A stretch of DNA of 64,000 bases from Chryseobacterium luteum. GTDB lineage: Bacteria > Bacteroidota > Bacteroidia > Flavobacteriales > Weeksellaceae. Within the stretch, counting starts at the first letter, position 1. Each line of letters opens with the position of its first letter. Under the pieces are notes generated by a model. That model saw only the letters and a list, made by a program, of their open reading frames with translations. It was not told the origin of the DNA and searched no databases. Shown here piece by piece: positions 5,987-60,346 of the stretch. The position numbers and the translations under genes are program-made. The DNA is taken from assembly GCF_000737785.1 (NCBI RefSeq), contig NZ_JPRO01000004.1, forward strand, positions 1-64,000, written 5' to 3'.

Positions 5987-6598
5987 TTAATCCTTTTCGT
6001 TATAAGGCAGCCTGTTAATAATGGATCTTCCCAAAGATACTTCATCCGCGTATTCCAGCTCATCCCCTACTGAAATTCCTCTGGCAATGCTGGAAAAACT
6101 GACATTAAAGTTCTTAAATTTTTTATAAATATAGTAGGCTGTGGTATCTCCTTCCATGGTAGCACTTAATGCAAAAATAAATTCCCTCACTCCGCCTTCA
6201 TTTACTTTTCTTTCGATACTCGGAATATTCAGCTGGTTGGGACCAACGCCTTCCATTGGTGATATTTTTCCGCCCAGGATCAGATATTTCCCTGCAAACT
6301 TTCCTGTATTTTCTATGGCGATTACGTCACGGACGTCCTCCACAATGCAGATCAGCTCGCTGTTTCTTTTTTCATTGCTGCAAATCTCACAGACATCAAA
6401 ATCTGAAAAATTATGGCATTCTTTACAGTATTTTATTTCGTTAACAAGGTTGATTAATGAGTTTCCAAGACCTACCGCTCTGGAGCTGGGCTGTTTTAAC
6501 AGGTGTAGTGCCAATCTCAACGCTGTTTTTCTCCCGATTCCGGGCAGTCCTGAAATTTCGTCTACGGCTTTTGCCAAAACTTTACTAGGGTAATCCAT
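5987..6598 (-). CDS. recR: Recombination mediator RecR
   Basis: The 203-residue length matches the family (about 200). The N-terminal helix-hairpin-helix (SGLPGIGRKTALRLALHLL) is followed by a four-cysteine zinc finger (CKECHNFSDFDVCEIC, residues about 57-72) and a Toprim domain (ELICIVEDVRDVIAIE). A C-terminal Walker-like segment with ARGISVGDELEYADEVSLGRS follows. RecR works with RecO (and RecF) to load RecA on gapped DNA. The glycosyltransferase follows directly. Confidence 0.96.
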   Translation of the reverse strand: MDYPSKVLAKAVDEISGLPGIGRKTALRLALHLLKQPSSRAVGLGNSLINLVNEIKYCKECHNFSDFDVCEICSNEKRNSELICIVEDVRDVIAIENTGKFAGKYLILGGKISPMEGVGPNQLNIPSIERKVNEGGVREFIFALSATMEGDTTAYYIYKKFKNFNVSFSSIARGISVGDELEYADEVSLGRSIINRLPYNEKD

Positions 6599-8350: not shown

Positions 8351-9793
8351 ATGGAATTATCTAATATAGAACCGCAGATTATCTGGAAAAATTTCTCCAG
8401 ATTAAATGCAGTTCCAAGACCGTCTAAAAAAGAAGAAAGAGTAATCGCTTTCATCAAAGAATTTGGTGAAAATCTAGGGCTGGAAACTACAGTAGACGAG
8501 GTAGGAAACGTTATCATCAGGAAACCCGCAACTCCGGGCATGGAAAACCGTAAATCTGTTGTCCTTCAGTCGCATCTGGATATGGTATGCCAGAAGAACA
8601 GCGATATTAATTTTGATTTTGAAACTGAAGGAATCAAAATGGAAATTGACGGAGATTGGGTAAAAGCAAAAGGAACAACTTTAGGTGCAGATAATGGCTT
8701 AGGAGTGGCAACAATTATGTCTATCCTGGAAAGTTCAGATATTCCTCATCCGGCTATGGAAGCTCTTTTCACGATCGATGAAGAAACAGGTATGACGGGC
8801 GCTTTAGGTTTAAAGCCGGGTCAGCTTACAGGAGAAATCCTATTAAACCTTGACACAGAAGAAGATGACGAAATTGATATTGGCTGTGCAGGCGGTGTAG
8901 ATGTAACCATTACTCAAAATTACGGAACAGAAGCCGCAAAAGGGCAGATTGTAAAAATTGAGGTTAAAGGACTTCAGGGAGGACATTCCGGAATGGACAT
9001 CCACAAAGGTTTCGGAAACTCCAATATTATCCTGGGAAGACTGCTTTACACAGGCGTGGCTAACCAGAATATCCAGCTGGTCTCTGTAGACGGCGGCGGA
9101 TTGAGAAATGCAATTCCAAGAGAAGCTTCAACTCTTATTTCTGTGAGAAATGCTCAGGAATTTATTGAAGCTGCAACAGCTCTAAAAAAAGAAATTTTAG
9201 AAGAGTTTGCTACGGTAGAACCTGGTATCCATATTAATATTGAAAATTCTACAACTTCTGACAAAGCAATCTCCGAAGAAGATTCAAAGAAGATCATTCT
9301 TACATTAAAATCTCTTCACAACGGGGTTTACAGAATGAGTCCAGATGTGAAAGATCTCGTGGAAGCATCCAATAATGTAGCCAGAGTGGAATTGAAAGGC
9401 GGTGAGCTTAAAATTTTAAACCTGACCAGATCATCTGTAGATTCATCTAAATATTCTGTGGCAGAACAGTTAAAATCTGTTGCGGAATTAGCCGGAATGA
9501 ACGTAGAATTCAGTGGTTCTTACCCGGGATGGAAACCAAAACCGGGTTCTGAAATCGTACAGCTTATGGAAAAGATCTACACAGAAAAATTCGGTGAAAA
9601 ACCTCATGTGGTAGCTTGCCACGCAGGACTTGAATGCGGGATCATCGGAGCGAATTACCCTGAAATGGAAATGGTAAGCTTCGGACCTACAATCAGAGGA
9701 GCTCACTCTCCGGATGAGAAAGCCAATATTCCTTCTGCTCAGAAATTCTGGAGCTTTACTAAAGATATTTTAGCGAATATTCCTTTAAAATAA
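8351..9793 (+). CDS. pepD: Aminoacyl-histidine dipeptidase (peptidase D, M20C)
   Basis: The 480-residue protein has the M20 metal-site series. These are SHLDMV with H75 and D77, the bridging aspartate in LGADNGLG near residue 118, the catalytic glutamate in TIDEETGMTGA near 148, and later the ACHAGLECG and GAHSPDEK metal-ligand segments near the C-terminus. The lid/dimerisation domain occupies the middle. It is a cytosolic di-zinc enzyme that cleaves Xaa-His dipeptides and other small peptides. The length matches PepD. It is a single gene with terminators on both sides. Confidence 0.93.
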   Translation: MELSNIEPQIIWKNFSRLNAVPRPSKKEERVIAFIKEFGENLGLETTVDEVGNVIIRKPATPGMENRKSVVLQSHLDMVCQKNSDINFDFETEGIKMEIDGDWVKAKGTTLGADNGLGVATIMSILESSDIPHPAMEALFTIDEETGMTGALGLKPGQLTGEILLNLDTEEDDEIDIGCAGGVDVTITQNYGTEAAKGQIVKIEVKGLQGGHSGMDIHKGFGNSNIILGRLLYTGVANQNIQLVSVDGGGLRNAIPREASTLISVRNAQEFIEAATALKKEILEEFATVEPGIHINIENSTTSDKAISEEDSKKIILTLKSLHNGVYRMSPDVKDLVEASNNVARVELKGGELKILNLTRSSVDSSKYSVAEQLKSVAELAGMNVEFSGSYPGWKPKPGSEIVQLMEKIYTEKFGEKPHVVACHAGLECGIIGANYPEMEMVSFGPTIRGAHSPDEKANIPSAQKFWSFTKDILANIPLK

Positions 9794-51560: not shown

Positions 51561-52343
51561 TTAATTCGTTCTTACGAGACAGTTTACAATCTCATGTGGT
51601 TTAAAGTAGGTTTGTGCTCCAAGCATATACTCTGGAATCAACCCCGCTTTTCTCATTCTCCAAAAAGTAGTTTCACCCACCCCTAAGAAATCAGTAGCTT
51701 CTTTGATTGATAAAAGTTCAGGTAACATTCTTTCTTCCAAAGAGCTTATTTTAGCCGTCAAATCAGCAGTTCGTTCAGCTAAAATCCTTTCAATGACAGA
51801 TTGTAATATTTCATCATTTGACACGCCAGAATCGCCTGAAAATGATTCAGAATATTGCACACATAGTTTATCCAGATTCTCAATTTCTTTACTGTATTGA
51901 TCCACGAAGTAATCAACTACTTCTTTTTGGATAGGATTAAGGTTTTCAAGTGTAGATAAAATCTCACCGATACTAATAAAATGTAATTTTATTTCATAGG
52001 CAGTTTGTCGTTTTGTTTTTAAATCGTTAATAGTTAATAGATAATCTCTCAATTCATTTCTGAAACCATGCGACAAATCCGAAAAGATTTGTGCGGTTGC
52101 ATTATAGAACAATCCGAAGTCGAAAATGGGTAGTACCTCATCATAATTGACAAAATACACATGAAAATGATTGTTTACGTCAAATTCACTTTCCAAGATT
52201 TCTGTTTCTTCGTTACAGTCAAAAAATGTCATTCCTACACTCATTTTAGGGTGCAAAAATCCGAGATTTCCGTACCTGCATACAAATGTATCAATCGACA
52301 ATAAATCGTGTTTTAAAAGCGGGTTTTGTAATAGTTTATTCAT
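51561..52343 (-). CDS. HTH-domain protein of the mobile element (excisionase-like C-terminus)
   Basis: The 260-residue protein has an unassigned N-terminal domain (1-150). A coiled-coil stretch IERILAERTADLTAKISSLEERM precedes a C-terminal HTH_17/MerR-like winged helix LLSIKEATDFLGVGETTFWRMRKAGLIPEYMLGAQTYFKPHEIVNCL (about 210-257). The same type of wHTH is used by excisionases and replication regulators. The gene is 13 bp from the integrase end on the same strand, so the integrase, this gene and the polymerase-like gene probably form one module. Confidence 0.75.
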   Translation of the reverse strand: MNKLLQNPLLKHDLLSIDTFVCRYGNLGFLHPKMSVGMTFFDCNEETEILESEFDVNNHFHVYFVNYDEVLPIFDFGLFYNATAQIFSDLSHGFRNELRDYLLTINDLKTKRQTAYEIKLHFISIGEILSTLENLNPIQKEVVDYFVDQYSKEIENLDKLCVQYSESFSGDSGVSNDEILQSVIERILAERTADLTAKISSLEERMLPELLSIKEATDFLGVGETTFWRMRKAGLIPEYMLGAQTYFKPHEIVNCLVRTN

Positions 52344-52356
52344 TCTGTATTATCAT

Positions 52357-53652
52357 TTAATTATTAATCATAAAATAACTGGCTAATGCATGAGATTGTT
52401 GTTGGTCTACTTTTCCGATGTACCTTAGAAACATACCCTCGGATTTGTGACCAGTCGCAGTCATTAACAAAGGGGTTGGTATTTTACCATAATTATTACT
52501 TGCAAAGCTCCTTCTTCCGATGTGACTTGTCACAAGCTCATGTTTTGGATAATTGGCAAAGACTTTCCTTTTACCTTTTTCAACTCCTCCATAACAAACC
52601 TCAGTAATTCCCGCATCTTTACAAACAGTTTTCACTAATTTGTTGTACTTGTCTTCGTCATATTTGGGCGGAAATTGAAAACCTCTTTTATTGAGTATAT
52701 CCAAAATCTTCGGGTGAACAGGCAAATGTAACACATGATCTGTTTTATCTTGGGTGAAGTTTAAAAAGTAGCCTTCTTGCTCATTTTCAAGCTTTTCTTT
52801 AGTAAGCATTTCTACATTAAACCTCATAAAGTCCGATATTCTTTGCCCACTGAAAACCGAGACTAATAACCAATCACGGACATTGTATAAGTCGGAATCT
52901 TCAAAATTGTGTCTTTCAATAGCTTCTAATTCAGCAGGTGTTAAGATTTGAAAAATGGCCTTTTCTTCTTTTGACTTCACCAACTTAATTTGAGAATGTA
53001 GTTTAACACCATTTCTCTCAGCTTGATAAGCTATAATTCTCAATAGCCTAAGATTTGCAAATGTGTAATTCTTTGAGTACCTCATCACTTCATAGCAATA
53101 CTTCTCAAAGTCAACCTTAAACTTCATATTAATTTCGCTGAATTTTAAAACTTTCTTCTTATTATTCTTCAAAAATTTCTCAACAATCACTTTAACACAG
53201 TTGATTCTTGTTATATAACTTTTTGAAATTTCGTGTTTCTTTTGCTCTATGAAGACAGCACAGAATGACACAAAATCATCTGGAACAGTATTTTCCACTA
53301 CAACAGGGGGATTAATCACGCTTTTCAACCATTCTGTATTAAATTCTACCTCTTCAGCTTCTTTAAAGGCTTTATCAATCTTTTTAGCCAAGTCTTGAAG
53401 CCTTTCGTTTACTACTTGACTCTCTACAAACAAGGCTCTTGTTGCCCCGTCTCTCTTCTCAACCAATTTACCTTTTTGCTCAACGAAAAATCTCTCTTTC
53501 ATCATTCCATTATCACCATCCCAATGGGAAGCAATACATGTTTCTTTAGTTGCTATTTTAAGGTCGAACGCTCGACCATTGCTTACGCGTACATAAATAG
53601 GCGTAATTACTTCGCCAGACTTGTGTCTGACAAAAAATTTTGTCTTTAACAT
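52357..53652 (-). CDS. Tyrosine integrase
   Basis: The 431-residue protein has an N-terminal arm-binding domain (residues 1-110), a SAM-like core-binding domain (120-225) and a catalytic domain with the full set. These are R271 (SGQRISD), K303, H377-x-x-R380 (HIGRRSF), H402 (GHKSE) and nucleophile Y411 (RYIG). It belongs to the Bacteroidota phage/ICE integrase group. It catalyses integration and excision of the element, whose right end lies about 320 bp upstream of its start. It has its own consensus promoter. Confidence 0.95.
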   Translation of the reverse strand: MLKTKFFVRHKSGEVITPIYVRVSNGRAFDLKIATKETCIASHWDGDNGMMKERFFVEQKGKLVEKRDGATRALFVESQVVNERLQDLAKKIDKAFKEAEEVEFNTEWLKSVINPPVVVENTVPDDFVSFCAVFIEQKKHEISKSYITRINCVKVIVEKFLKNNKKKVLKFSEINMKFKVDFEKYCYEVMRYSKNYTFANLRLLRIIAYQAERNGVKLHSQIKLVKSKEEKAIFQILTPAELEAIERHNFEDSDLYNVRDWLLVSVFSGQRISDFMRFNVEMLTKEKLENEQEGYFLNFTQDKTDHVLHLPVHPKILDILNKRGFQFPPKYDEDKYNKLVKTVCKDAGITEVCYGGVEKGKRKVFANYPKHELVTSHIGRRSFASNNYGKIPTPLLMTATGHKSEGMFLRYIGKVDQQQSHALASYFMINN

Positions 53653-56097: not shown

Positions 56098-56301
56098 ATG
56101 AAAAAGCTTCAAGGAATGAAGAACGGTTTTTCTTCATTAGAAAACAAAAAGATGAACAATCTGGGAACAATTACCGGAGGAAGTGGTACCTCACGAACTT
56201 CAAATCAGACACTATGTGGCCCCAACTGTTCTGATACGGAATATTATAAAGATGGCGCAAAGACTATGACATTATATATTGACGGTCCTAATCCAGCTTA
56301 A
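56098..56301 (+). CDS. Grasp-with-spasm system precursor peptide
   Basis: The 67-residue protein has a leader (1-28) that is basic then FSSLENKKMNNLGTITGG. It ends in a double glycine, the usual cleavage site for C39-type leader peptidases. The 39-residue core begins SGTSRTSNQTLCGPNCSD and ends in TLYIDGPNPA. It has two cysteines (C40, C44) and many Thr, Ser, Asp, Glu and Lys, as needed for ester or amide crosslinks made by an ATP-grasp ligase. A clear terminator follows, then the maturase genes. A longer overlapping frame from 56028 was not preferred, as it lacks these features. Confidence 0.8.
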   Translation: MKKLQGMKNGFSSLENKKMNNLGTITGGSGTSRTSNQTLCGPNCSDTEYYKDGAKTMTLYIDGPNPA

Positions 56302-56311
56302 ATTTAAAATG

Positions 56312-56340
56312 AACAGGGCAGTTGCTAAAACAGCCCTGTT
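56312..56340 (+). terminator. Terminator/attenuator after the precursor gene
   Basis: AACAGGGC (56312-56319) pairs with GCCCTGTT (56333-56340) and is followed by CTATTACTTT. A weak T-run suggests partial readthrough into the maturase genes. Confidence 0.7.
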
Positions 56341-56409
56341 CTATTACTTTAAAACGGAAAAAAGCATATCCTACAATCTATAGCTTTCAAATATACCTTC
56401 TTCACAAAT

Positions 56410-57303
56410 ATGAAACAAAATCAAAACATCAAATATATAGTGAGCTCTTTAATTATATGCTTTTTCTTTTACTGCTGTAAAAGCAAAGATTATATTGCAT
56501 ACTATAATAAGGTGAACGAAATCGACAGCATCTACAGGATGGCAAAGCAGCCTGAAAAAGCAGCAGATCTGTATCATAAGCTATTCAGAAAATACCGTCC
56601 ACTCAACCAGGAACGGATTGAAGAGTATGAGACCTATATCAGGATTTCCGACAGATACCATAAAAATTTCGGAGGAAAGAAAAGTCTTTACCGTCTGATT
56701 CCCCTGATTGCTCCCTACTGGAGGTATAAAAAAGAAGATCCTAAATTCATTAAACTTTATAAAAAATACGGAATAGACAGCCTGAGCATGGAACAGAAAG
56801 TTGCCCAATGGGATAAAAGCCTAAACAAAAAACTGATAGACTCTTTTGTGATAGCATTTGAACGTGACCAATATGGAGATCGCCTTAATAATTCTGATCG
56901 TGTTGAAAATGATCTGAAAAATGCTGAACTATTGAAATGGACTTTTGAGAATCACGGCTTTCCTTCCATGCAGAAAATAGGTCTCTACTATAAGGATGCT
57001 TTTATGCCAATGAGTGTATTATTACTACATATGGCAGATTATGATGAATATCACCCTTATTTCAAAACTAAAATACTGGAATATATAAAGTCCGGTGAGT
57101 GCTCTCCACGAGATTATGCTGCTATGATGGACAGGAATAATCTGCATCATAAAACTCCTTATCCCTACGGTGTTTATCAGGGATATCAAAATATAAAAGA
57201 TTCAGCACAGGTAAACCGGAACAGGAAAAGTATTGGTCTTCCAAGCTTAAAATATCGAAACAAATTAGCAAAAGATCAGGCAGACAGCCTAAGAAACAAA
57301 TGA
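56410..57303 (+). CDS. DUF6624-like lipoprotein of the peptide cluster, copy 1
   Basis: The 297-residue protein has a signal ending FFYCCKSK (cysteines at about 22-23), a likely lipobox. The C-terminal half matches DUF6624 as I know it: NAELLKWTFENHGFPSMQKIG, then SVLLLHMADYDEYHPYFKTKILEYIKSGECSPRDYAAMMDRN, then YGVYQGY and VNRNRKSIGLPSL. The N-terminal half (LFRKYRP...ERIEEYETYI) is shared with the paralogue at 59462. Its stop overlaps the ATP-grasp start by 4 nt, tying it to the maturation system. The role is unknown. Confidence 0.7.
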   Translation: MKQNQNIKYIVSSLIICFFFYCCKSKDYIAYYNKVNEIDSIYRMAKQPEKAADLYHKLFRKYRPLNQERIEEYETYIRISDRYHKNFGGKKSLYRLIPLIAPYWRYKKEDPKFIKLYKKYGIDSLSMEQKVAQWDKSLNKKLIDSFVIAFERDQYGDRLNNSDRVENDLKNAELLKWTFENHGFPSMQKIGLYYKDAFMPMSVLLLHMADYDEYHPYFKTKILEYIKSGECSPRDYAAMMDRNNLHHKTPYPYGVYQGYQNIKDSAQVNRNRKSIGLPSLKYRNKLAKDQADSLRNK

Positions 57304-58202
57304 TACTGATACTTTCCAACAATAACGACAGAACAACGATAGAAGTTATACGGTGGCTGGCAGCTCTCAACAAAAACTTTATTCTTGTGAATGATGATGA
57401 ATTTTTTGAAATTAAAGTTGATAAAAAACGCATCCTTCTTCAAAGCCAAAAGAACCGTTTCTTTCTTGATGAGATAAAAAGCGTATGGTACAGAAGAGGA
57501 GGTATGCAGTTTAAACGTTTCCGGTACAGCCATGAGTCTATTAATATTTATATGAATGAAGCCCAGCATTGGCTGGAAGATTATATACTGCGGACTTTAG
57601 AATCCAAAAGGCACGTCAACAAACAAAGCAACAGCATTGTCAATAAGCTTTTGGTATTAGAATATGCGAAAAAAACAGGATTCCACGTCCCTGAATATTT
57701 TCTGGCCGAAAATACAGATGAAATTATTTTGGATAGGACCATCACAAAGTCAATCACAGGAAACGTGATAATAGACCGGATATCTGAAAACATGGATGGA
57801 ATTATGTATACAACCATTGTGGAAGAAAAGGAAAAAGAGGAGTTCTTTATCTCTTTTTTTCAGGAAAAAATAGAAAAGGATTTTGAGATCAGAACTTTTT
57901 ATTTGAATGGTGAATGTTTCTCCATGGCTATTTTTTCACAAAATGATGATCAGACCAAAACAGATTTCAGAAAATACAATGATGAAAAACCCAATAGAAA
58001 TATCAGGTACAATCTTCCGAAAGAGATAGAATTTAAGATTCAAAAGCTGATGGAAATACTGGATCTTAATTGTGGTTCTTTAGATTTTATCAAGAGTGGA
58101 GATGTGTACTACTTCTTAGAGGTTAATCCTGTAGGACAGTTTGCTAATGTAGCCTATCATTGTAATTATCCCTTATTTAAAAAAATTGCAGATTATTTAT
58201 GA
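57300..58202 (+). CDS. Grasp-with-spasm system ATP-grasp peptide maturase
   Basis: The 300-residue protein has an MvdD/GwsG-like ATP-grasp fold. It opens ILILSNNNDRTTIEVIRWL, has the conserved SVWYRRGG (about residue 62), then the central domain with GNVIIDRIS. The Mg-ATP site has FEIRTFYLNGE, FRKYND, LNCGSLDFIKSGDVYYFLEVNPVGQF (Asp, Glu and Asn ligands). It activates side-chain carboxylates with ATP and joins them to hydroxyl or amine side chains in the precursor core. It is coupled by 4-nt overlaps to both neighbours. Confidence 0.9.
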   Translation: MILILSNNNDRTTIEVIRWLAALNKNFILVNDDEFFEIKVDKKRILLQSQKNRFFLDEIKSVWYRRGGMQFKRFRYSHESINIYMNEAQHWLEDYILRTLESKRHVNKQSNSIVNKLLVLEYAKKTGFHVPEYFLAENTDEIILDRTITKSITGNVIIDRISENMDGIMYTTIVEEKEKEEFFISFFQEKIEKDFEIRTFYLNGECFSMAIFSQNDDQTKTDFRKYNDEKPNRNIRYNLPKEIEFKIQKLMEILDLNCGSLDFIKSGDVYYFLEVNPVGQFANVAYHCNYPLFKKIADYL

Positions 58203-58381
58203 AAAAAAATTTTGGAGAAAAATATAAACTCCCCTTATCATTTAAACAAATGGAATATTTTAAACATAAAAACTCTAACAAAATAGACAGCAACACAATA
58301 TGTGTATTAAAAAGTGAAAAATACCAAAGTGACTTTTATGTAAGAGAAAAACCTGTAAAATCACTGTTCCGGTTGTTATGA
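58199..58381 (+). CDS. Unrecognised 60-residue protein inside the maturase operon
   Basis: The very basic small protein (many Lys, start MKKNFGEKYKLPLSFKQMEYFKHKN, end KPVKSLFRLL) has one cysteine, no signal peptide and no double glycine. Its start overlaps the ATP-grasp stop (ATGA) and its stop overlaps the SPASM gene start (ATGA), so it is translated as part of the chain. I do not recognise a family. It could be an accessory or a precursor-binding partner; a second precursor is less likely without a leader motif. Confidence 0.65.
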   Translation: MKKNFGEKYKLPLSFKQMEYFKHKNSNKIDSNTICVLKSEKYQSDFYVREKPVKSLFRLL

Positions 58382-59397
58382 GATATTTCAATTTGTTTTC
58401 AAATATATTGGTTACAAAAGGAGTAAGCAGAATTTTGATATCCGATCTTCAAAGGAATATCTCTGAACTCTATCCTTTAGAATTATATGATATCATAGAA
58501 AAATTAAAAGAGTATTCTGTAGAGAATATCATAGAATATTATGACGAAGAATCTGCAGATATAGTCAAGGAATACATCAATATTTTAGTAGAAAAAGAAT
58601 ACGGATTTATTACAGAAAACAATTGGGATAAAAATTTTCCGCCTCTTAGCTATGAATATGATGAACCCAGCATGATAACAGAGATTTTTATAGAATTATC
58701 AGAAATTTCTGTATTGAAAAAAATAAAGGAGTCAATAGAAAATCTCAGAATAAAACATTTGGTTCTTTACAGCGAAAAAACTTTTACCGCAGAGGATCTC
58801 ATACAGATCGATCAAATATTCACCACGTCCGTTTTATCCGGTATAGAAATTTTTTCTTTATTCCATAAGGATATAGATAAGCCTTTTATAAATAAGCTTC
58901 ATCAGAATACGGAAAGAATATACAATCTCGTTTTTTACAGTTGCGGGAAAAAGCCTTTCAAAGTAAAGGATGAATTCAGATTCAACTTACATTTTATTGA
59001 AGAAGAAATGAAAATCTCCTCTTGCGGAAAAGTAGATCTGAAATATTTCAATACCAATATCTCAAAAGTATCAGAGGCTATAAATTATAATTCCTGTCTC
59101 CACAAAAAAATAGGAATCGATATAAACGGCAACATCAAGAATTGTCCTTTAATGGCTGACGATTTTGGGAACATCAATAATACAAGTCTTGAAAATGCTT
59201 TGACAGACCCTAGATTCAGGAAGTACTGGAATGTAACCAAAGATAATATAGAAATATGTAAAGACTGTGAATTCAGGTATATCTGTACAGATTGCAGAGC
59301 TTATACCGAACGCAGCCATATCAACAGCGAAGGACTGGACACCTCCAGACCCCTGAAATGCGGTTATGATCCTTACACAGGGAAATGGGAAACATAG
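58378..59397 (+). CDS. Grasp-with-spasm system SPASM-domain peptide maturase
   Basis: The 339-residue protein has a C-terminal SPASM domain with cysteines at 240, 256, 294, 297, 303, 306 and 328. The motifs are SCLHKKIGIDINGNIKNCPL and CKDCEFRYICTDC...CGYDPYTGKWE. The N-terminal 230 residues resemble a degenerate radical SAM barrel, but the first cysteine is at 189, so no CxxxCxxC cluster site exists. It probably binds the auxiliary cluster(s) and the precursor rather than S-adenosylmethionine. It starts inside the previous gene's stop and lies 64 bp before the second lipoprotein. Confidence 0.88.
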   Translation: MRYFNLFSNILVTKGVSRILISDLQRNISELYPLELYDIIEKLKEYSVENIIEYYDEESADIVKEYINILVEKEYGFITENNWDKNFPPLSYEYDEPSMITEIFIELSEISVLKKIKESIENLRIKHLVLYSEKTFTAEDLIQIDQIFTTSVLSGIEIFSLFHKDIDKPFINKLHQNTERIYNLVFYSCGKKPFKVKDEFRFNLHFIEEEMKISSCGKVDLKYFNTNISKVSEAINYNSCLHKKIGIDINGNIKNCPLMADDFGNINNTSLENALTDPRFRKYWNVTKDNIEICKDCEFRYICTDCRAYTERSHINSEGLDTSRPLKCGYDPYTGKWET

Positions 59398-59461
59398 AGC
59401 AAAAACCCTTTAAAACAAAAGGCTGTACGTTTTTATAAAAGCATATACATAAACTCAGGGC

Positions 59462-60346
59462 ATGAAATATAGAAAAAACACTTTTATATTACTTATTATT
59501 TTCCTCATCCTTTCCTGCAAAAGCAAAAAACTGAATTATATTGAATATTATCATAAAGTATATGCTATTGACAGCGCCCATAGAGCGGGTAAAGATACTT
59601 TGGCAACAATCAGGCAGTATAAAAAATTATTCAGAAAATATCCTCCCGCTCAAAATGAAAGGATCGAAGAGTATGAAGCCTACATAAAGTATGCAGACAA
59701 ATTCAATAAAAAATTTGGTGGTATAAAAAGTTTGGACAGGCTTATAGCGCAGTCTGCACCTAACTGGAAATACAAAAGAGAAGATCAGGATTTTTTTAAA
59801 CTCTATAAAAAGTACGGAATTGACAGCATTGGTGTTGAACGAAAAGTTTTGCAGTGGAAAAAAGGCTTAAATAAAATACTGATAGATTCTTTCAGTATAG
59901 CAGCAACAAGGGATCGGTATAATGATCGTGTAGGCCCTACTGTAGTAATAGATGACAAAAAGAATGCGGAACTTCTGATCTGGACATTGAAGAATTATAG
60001 TTTCCCATCAAAACAAAAAATAGGACTTTACGGAAATAATGATGTCCCAATATATATGGGCATTATACTCAATCATATGGCAGGATCCGAATATTATGAG
60101 TACTTCAGGACTAAACTGCTGGAATATGTAAAATCCGGTGAATGTACACCCAGAGACTATATTGAGATGATAGATAAATACCAGTATATTCATTATCTGG
60201 AACCTGTGTACGGTATATTCATTCATTATAATTTTCCGGATTTTAATGCTTCAGACTCTGCAAGAATAGACCGGAACCGGAAAGCGGTAGGGTTTCCTAC
60301 GCTCAAACAGTCTTCAAAGATTACAAGAGACTTCCAAAGAAAATGA
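59462..60346 (+). CDS. DUF6624-like lipoprotein of the peptide cluster, copy 2
   Basis: The 294-residue paralogue of the 56410 protein has a signal with lipobox LILSC (cysteine at about 20) followed by KSKK. It shares KLFRKYPP...ERIEEYEAYI, RLIAQSAPNWKYKREDQDFFKLYKKYGIDS and the C-terminal LLEYVKSGECTPRDYIEMIDKYQ with copy 1. It ends the run of genes on this strand. Its distance of 64 bp from the SPASM gene suggests the same transcript but independent translation. Confidence 0.7.
   Translation: MKYRKNTFILLIIFLILSCKSKKLNYIEYYHKVYAIDSAHRAGKDTLATIRQYKKLFRKYPPAQNERIEEYEAYIKYADKFNKKFGGIKSLDRLIAQSAPNWKYKREDQDFFKLYKKYGIDSIGVERKVLQWKKGLNKILIDSFSIAATRDRYNDRVGPTVVIDDKKNAELLIWTLKNYSFPSKQKIGLYGNNDVPIYMGIILNHMAGSEYYEYFRTKLLEYVKSGECTPRDYIEMIDKYQYIHYLEPVYGIFIHYNFPDFNASDSARIDRNRKAVGFPTLKQSSKITRDFQRK

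Follow-up and report, generated by a model that had tools for sequence, protein, structure and literature searches.

A grasp-with-spasm cluster of Chryseobacterium luteum whose SPASM protein has no radical SAM site and is likely to be a leader-reading partner

What does the SPASM protein of a grasp-with-spasm cluster do? A large Bacteroidota branch of predicted graspetides has so far been read as an ATP-grasp ligase plus a radical S-adenosylmethionine (SAM) tailoring enzyme. The question is raised here by a cluster at 56098-60346, on the forward strand, of the 64,000-nucleotide stretch of Chryseobacterium luteum DNA that we analysed (contig NZ_JPRO01000004.1, positions 1 to 64,000), which we call the window. 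Its SPASM protein, GwsS (gene 58378-59397), is almost certainly not a radical SAM enzyme. We think it likely that GwsS is a leader-reading partner, and the reading we favor, with rather less assurance, is that it grips the leader and hands the precursor to the ATP-grasp ligase GwsG, the predicted closer of ester or amide rings.

By its models the cluster certainly belongs to the grasp-with-spasm family. The precursor (56098-56301, 67 residues) scores 49.3 bits against TIGR04139 (cut-off 40) and 27.2 bits against PF14406 (cut-off 25), GwsG (57300-58202) scores 359.8 bits against TIGR04192 (cut-off 230), and GwsS scores 400.7 bits against TIGR04193 (cut-off 175), so that the precursor, ATP-grasp and SPASM models all stand above their curated NCBIfam cut-offs. 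The initial annotation had made this assignment and proposed a search with both maturase models as its check; since both lie well above their cut-offs, the assignment stands. The elements it had listed (a double-glycine precursor, an attenuator hairpin, a lipoprotein, the ligase, a 60-residue protein, the SPASM protein and a second lipoprotein) are all present in that order, at the same coordinates and on the same strand. Overlaps of 4 bp successively join the genes of lipoprotein 1, GwsG, the 60-residue protein (LPL) and GwsS, which therefore look translationally coupled. We compared 83 loci: the window, two others of C. luteum on contigs C26 and C14, and 80 others, taken for the most part from the highest-ranking same-genus matches. 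In most of them the order is precursor, lipoprotein, GwsG, LPL and GwsS, and because this order recurs across the other loci examined, the cluster is not a chance arrangement.

The CX3CX2C motif that would hold the SAM cluster is absent from all 127 GwsS family members. Among 32 further proteins the spacing occurs in one (L284, residue 294), where it lies inside the SPASM cysteines and outside the barrel. PF04055, the Pfam radical SAM family, has no match at E <= 1 in any of five GwsS proteins, while both controls were matched. The predicted structure, which is confident, begins with an RRE-like winged-helix domain (residues 1-80, 58378-58617), in which the leader-binding fold (RRE) itself takes up residues 2-78. 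A shrunken beta/alpha barrel without the radical SAM motif follows at residues 94-207 (58657-58998), and then the SPASM domain at residues 216-337 (59023-59388), which carries eight cysteines in the window protein and matches PF13186 at 28.2 bits (cut-off 21.5). Residues 94-337 match PqqE, BtrN, SuiB and anSME chains. Because GwsS is without a radical SAM site and has a leader-binding fold, a second modification made by the SPASM protein is unlikely.

The SPASM cysteines split by their pattern of loss into two sets, 216/240/256/306 and 294/297/303/328, which we take to be the Aux I and Aux II ligands, respectively, of SPASM enzymes. The former set is intact in 112 of the 127 proteins; 14 proteins have none of it, and one (L177) keeps Cys216 alone. 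The latter set is intact in 126 and missing from one (L137). C. luteum's own GwsS on contig C14 is among the proteins without Aux I cysteines. Thirteen of the 14 loci with Aux I wholly lost were fetched with their flanks, and the ligase is kept in all 13. When every damaged Aux I set is counted (n = 15), 14 have flanks and all of these adjoin a GwsG of 310-340 residues, the fifteenth lying at the edge of L117. As one or both clusters can be lost while the ligase stays, GwsS is more likely a scaffold than an iron-sulfur catalyst. Genome G244 (L137 / L179) encodes a GwsS without both auxiliary ligand sets beside a full-length GwsG.

The precursor itself is divided into a nearly invariant leader and a variable core. 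With the window precursor as query, phmmer found 72 precursors in 70 of the 83 loci. Their double-glycine leader (residues 1-28 in the window, 56098-56181, with the glycines at 27-28) is almost fixed, with the consensus MKKLxGMK..FSSxENKKL..I.GG, and the mean pairwise difference over 66 loci is 0.33 in the leader versus 0.79 in the core. The microviridin-type leader motif Phhx(1,2)h occurs in the first 30 residues of none of the 72. In the core (residues 29-67, 56182-56298) column 46 is Asp or Glu in all 72 (Asp46 in the window), column 34 is Ser or Thr in 50 of 72, and the Ser/Thr residues at about 34-38 are candidate donors of the putative cross-links. The two core cysteines reported by the initial annotation are Cys40 and Cys44, in the form CGPNC; the literal CxxCxxxxxCxxC motif of the TIGR04139 name is missing from the window precursor, although the precursor is above that family's cut-off.

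Leader and core also diverge in step with different partners. We compared pairwise identity distances at loci with exactly one copy of each part (61 Chryseobacterium loci out of the 83) and computed, for each pair of parts, a partial correlation that controls for all the others, with its bootstrap range. The leader tracks the GwsS barrel (0.28, range 0.16 to 0.39) and the RRE (0.16, 0.05 to 0.25), and it has no positive partial for GwsG (-0.13, -0.24 to 0.01) or the lipoprotein (-0.18, -0.30 to -0.05). The core follows the lipoprotein (0.60, 0.51 to 0.69), GwsG (0.30, 0.19 to 0.38) and LPL (0.27, 0.15 to 0.38), with values near or below zero for the RRE (-0.04, -0.12 to 0.04) and the GwsS barrel (-0.15, -0.25 to -0.05). 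Within GwsG, the core follows the C-terminal part (0.35) and not the N part (-0.09). Distance along the DNA alone is not the cause, since the neighbors LPL and RRE give -0.08 and since leader and core differ within one gene.

GwsG resembles graspetide ligases of known structure, namely CdnC (7mgv, E 1.2e-18) and AMdnB (7m4s, 4.9e-18), and it also matches 5ig9 and 5ig8 (each named 'ATP grasp ligase', about 8e-17), which are presumably microviridin ligases. Residues K116, K150, R198, D262, E274 and N276, which we take to be conserved ATP-grasp residues by role, are kept in all 83 aligned GwsG proteins. GwsG would thus join Ser, Thr or Lys side chains to Asp or Glu, as its homology suggests. Ester or amide cross-links in the product are a reasonable expectation in view of the homology of GwsG to CdnC and further ligases of this class and of the core column that is always Asp or Glu.

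The 60-residue protein (58199-58381) bears the L-P-L motif of the 'LPL' family named in PMC8939145. It was found by phmmer in 74 of the 83 loci, with L11, P12, P52 and K54 in 98-100 % of 77 proteins. At 28 of 28 divergent loci an open reading frame of 46-74 residues fills the gap between ligase and SPASM genes, and the LPL profile matches 3 of these 28. The common LPL motif PLTFKYIE resembles the PFFASFLE of C. luteum's chryseoviridin-type precursors, and we considered LPL as a detached microviridin-type leader helix. We rejected this idea: against 11603 background windows starting with Pro, the likeness places the LPL median only in the top 10 % and the window LPL in the top 20 %, and the hhalign value is 0.3 %.

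Lipoprotein 1 (56410-57303) is predicted to be all-helical (pLDDT 92.1) and, like lipoprotein 2 (59462-60346; a paralogue, 52 % identical by alignment), has a signal-like N-terminus followed by a cysteine, as read from the sequence; in lipoprotein 1 this is the lipobox-like Cys23. The initial annotation had called lipoprotein 1 DUF6624-like. Profile-profile comparison bears this out for the C-terminal half (56824-57300), with a probability of 98.9 % and E 2.5e-17, compared with 0.1 % and 0.6 % for two unrelated control comparisons. A single-sequence match does not, as hmmscan gives the window protein no Pfam family at E <= 5; DUF6624 is touched by 3 of 41 relatives, the best at E 0.0014. Cys23, His207 and Tyr236 are invariant in 41 lipoproteins and Arg272 nearly so. 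No enzyme tracks the core as strongly as the DUF6624-type lipoprotein, whose DUF6624 half (0.48) does so more than its N half (0.18); this hints that lipoprotein and core form cognate pairs. The adjacency of the lipoprotein gene to the precursor may add to this correlation. That the lipoprotein tracks the core but shows no such link with the leader would suit a protein that deals with the mature peptide outside the cytoplasm.

These parts can be assembled into a mechanism. The RRE of GwsS would grip the conserved leader, a binding for which co-divergence is the indication, while GwsG, with the LPL subunit, would read the variable core and join Ser or Thr (or Lys) to the conserved Asp or Glu. 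A C39 transporter from another locus of the genome would then cut at the double glycine and export the peptide, and the DUF6624-type lipoproteins would meet the finished product outside the cytoplasm, for immunity, anchoring or processing. We put forward a fuller history more tentatively: GwsS may be a gutted radical SAM enzyme that lost the SAM cluster first, Aux I next and Aux II last, and whose RRE survives as an adaptor holding the leader, with LPL completing a core-reading ligase and the surface DUF6624 lipoprotein being each product's cognate receptor or immunity protein.

Several observations weigh against our account. Whole-chain Foldseek comparisons of GwsS give low TM-scores (0.27-0.43), and a sequence search of PDB chains with the GwsS profile yields no hit at E <= 0.01. 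The leader also follows LPL (0.21, 0.07 to 0.33), and the co-divergence distances come from non-independent loci, with several splits tried. The conservation of eight cysteines in most members argues that the iron-sulfur clusters matter, perhaps beyond structure. On that ground GwsS might be a true second maturase, whose two auxiliary clusters carry out SAM-independent redox chemistry on the core (e.g. a thioether or disulfide); the two cysteines of the window core and the SPASM-made thioethers proposed in PMC8939145 would suit such an enzyme. We regard it as quite improbable, given the missing SAM-cluster motif and PF04055 match, the loss of Aux I in 14 proteins (one of them also without Aux II) with the ligase kept wherever flanks were fetched, and the lack of co-divergence between GwsS and the core. 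Moreover, only Cys-free precursors were detected in 22 of the 69 loci that have a detected precursor and a full-length GwsS, a count that covers phmmer-detected precursors, as those that phmmer missed could carry Cys; thioether-making therefore cannot be the general job of GwsS. A further alternative concerns LPL, which PMC8939145 prefers to see as a PqqD-like chaperone of the SPASM enzyme, giving the ligase as the other candidate. LPL usually lies directly upstream of gwsS, with a 4-bp overlap in 60 of 68 pairs; two Pedobacter loci (L253, L254) have two GwsG, one detected LPL and two GwsS; and 26 new cross-genus loci give LPL-GwsS 0.40 (-0.11 to 0.69) and LPL-GwsG 0.25 (-0.02 to 0.63), ranges that both cross zero and do not settle the pairing, which also counts against our account. 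On the other side, the PqqD role is already filled by GwsS's own RRE, the LPL-RRE partial is -0.08 despite adjacency, LPL copy number tracks GwsG in three of 81 loci (L012, L064 and L085, with two GwsG, two LPL and one GwsS), and in 69 Chryseobacterium loci LPL follows GwsG (0.58, 0.51 to 0.67) above GwsS (0.21, 0.09 to 0.32). We consequently lean slightly toward LPL belonging with GwsG, and service to GwsS seems doubtful.

The lipoproteins might likewise be biosynthetic enzymes, in keeping with the suggestion in PMC13097080 that DUF6624 is an undiscovered enzyme class. The invariant His207, the nearly invariant Arg272 and the correlation of the DUF6624 half with the core speak for this, but the signal-peptide-like N-terminus and lipobox-like Cys place the proteins outside the cytoplasm, where they would meet neither ATP nor the precursor with its leader. 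They do not co-diverge with the leader, and a fold search gave no match at E <= 1e-3, so that an enzymatic role appears rather unlikely. The window copy raises a different doubt, as it could be a decaying duplicate that makes no product. Its GwsS ends at residue 339 with an in-frame stop (59395-59397), whereas 94 of 128 aligned GwsS proteins extend 15-24 residues further, and codons for the conserved tail still follow in frame. In the stretch searched, no C39 transporter relative was found in the window locus. With the tail missing and no transporter in the locus, this copy may work poorly, again a point against our account, and the early stop may be a recent defect or a tolerated one. Decay is nevertheless improbable: GwsG and GwsS retain their conserved residues, and the precursor, the hairpin and the 4-bp overlaps are intact; 19 of the 128 aligned proteins end no more than 4 residues from the same place (a set that includes the window GwsS and the outlier L139); and the fetched stretches of only 16 of the 83 loci contain a C39 peptidase transporter relative, while C. 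luteum has two C39 proteins elsewhere, one next to the sister locus on C26 and the other on C1.

Between the precursor and lipoprotein 1 lies the hairpin predicted by the initial annotation, with a 9-bp stem at 56311-56341; the 80-nucleotide segment that holds it (56302-56381) folds at -19.8 kcal/mol. Perfect stems of at least 7 bp occur no more than 70 nucleotides from the stop in 55 of 72 related precursors versus 125 of 1660 random 70-mers from the same loci. As a putative attenuator or partial terminator, the hairpin may allow more message for the precursor than for the enzymes. About 2.4 kb upstream of the cluster, on the reverse strand at 51561-53652, a phage-integrase-like protein (PF13102) and a 260-residue companion are encoded, possibly a small mobile island.

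Within the genus, TIGR04193 has matches in 116 of 148 genomes, 106 of which are above the cut-off. At E <= 1e-10 it matches 47 of 395 genomes of the order (43 above the cut-off), and at E <= 0.001 it matches 30 of 395 genomes of the phylum (12 above the cut-off); among the weakest matches at the phylum level are ordinary radical SAM proteins, for instance L139. Named loci among the best 80 of 495 relatives include Chryseobacterium, Pedobacter, Sphingobacterium and kin, Taibaiella and Flagellimonas. The C. luteum genome has three grasp-with-spasm loci, in the window and on contigs C26 and C14, and the SPASM protein of C14 scores below the SPASM-family cut-off. The sister locus on C26 (L012, 2579-14623, reverse strand) has two GwsG-LPL pairs and one GwsS, and also encodes a C39 peptidase ABC transporter, an HlyD protein and a VKOR-thioredoxin protein. 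Adjoining its transporter are two other Cys-containing double-glycine leader peptides of 61-62 residues (6197-6379 and 6413-6598, reverse strand), which have no Pfam match and differ from grasp-with-spasm precursors. Directly 3' of its GwsS gene, 8391-9227 (reverse strand) encodes a protein with a Porph_ging match and a weak match to the PNGase F-II N-terminal domain. On C14 (L013 / L004), three small leader-type peptides are encoded upstream, two of them Cys-rich with a double glycine.

If GwsS is an inactive radical SAM enzyme that has become a leader adaptor, looking for thioethers in this branch is misdirected, and expression attempts that omit GwsS or LPL should fail. It would also offer a clear case of an iron-sulfur enzyme losing its clusters stepwise while its partner role is kept, as well as a ready test of DUF6624 lipoprotein function.

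The grasp-with-spasm family, defined by TIGR04192 and TIGR04193 and described as 'branch 5' in PMC8939145, was already known by sequence, with the same ligase, SPASM protein, double-glycine precursor, LPL and lipoprotein; strictly conserved Thr/Ser and Asp/Glu had also been noted there in part of the branch. In that paper the SPASM protein is described as a radical SAM enzyme, and the name of the GwsS family says maturase, whereas the protein analysed here has an RRE fold and no SAM site. The reading of GwsS as a non-radical-SAM protein is new: in the passages available to us from PMC8939145, PMC13097080, PMC9576775, PMC13003496 and PMC10352776 we met no statement that the SPASM protein of this branch is without a SAM site, nor any characterized grasp-with-spasm product. 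We equate the family with 'group 14' of PMC13097080, an equation of our own, from that group's constant co-occurrence with a SPASM-domain protein. Characterized members were known for 9 of 24 graspetide groups in 2022 and for 11 after the work in PMC9576775, whose own groups include 2, 7, 8 and 19.

Partner dependence has a precedent in the rosaritide pair MirB-MirC (PMC13097080), where the graspetide ligase needs MirC, a protein with an N-domain weakly like an RRE. The logic is the one proposed here, but MirC is a PPIase/chaperone-type protein and GwsS a radical SAM/SPASM relic. A graspetide ligase dependent on a short leader segment is reported in PMC13003496, and PMC10352776 describes a Bacteroidales radical SAM/SPASM enzyme of the ordinary kind that carries an RRE-like extension. 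Ligases of the chryseoviridin (CdnC) and microviridin type are homologous to GwsG, and C. luteum has a chryseoviridin-type cluster of its own on contig C12 (L015, 4101-6943, reverse strand), with two ATP-grasp ligases and three precursors that carry the PFFASFLE leader motif, unlike the leaders found here; one of the three has matches in 79 of 98 same-genus genomes. To our knowledge, such systems need no SPASM partner. The radical SAM/SPASM maturases CteB, SuiB, TigE and PqqE share their overall fold with GwsS, and its SPASM cysteines presumably correspond to theirs, judging by their ligand sets. GwsS differs from these enzymes in that the CX3CX2C cluster and part of the barrel are gone.

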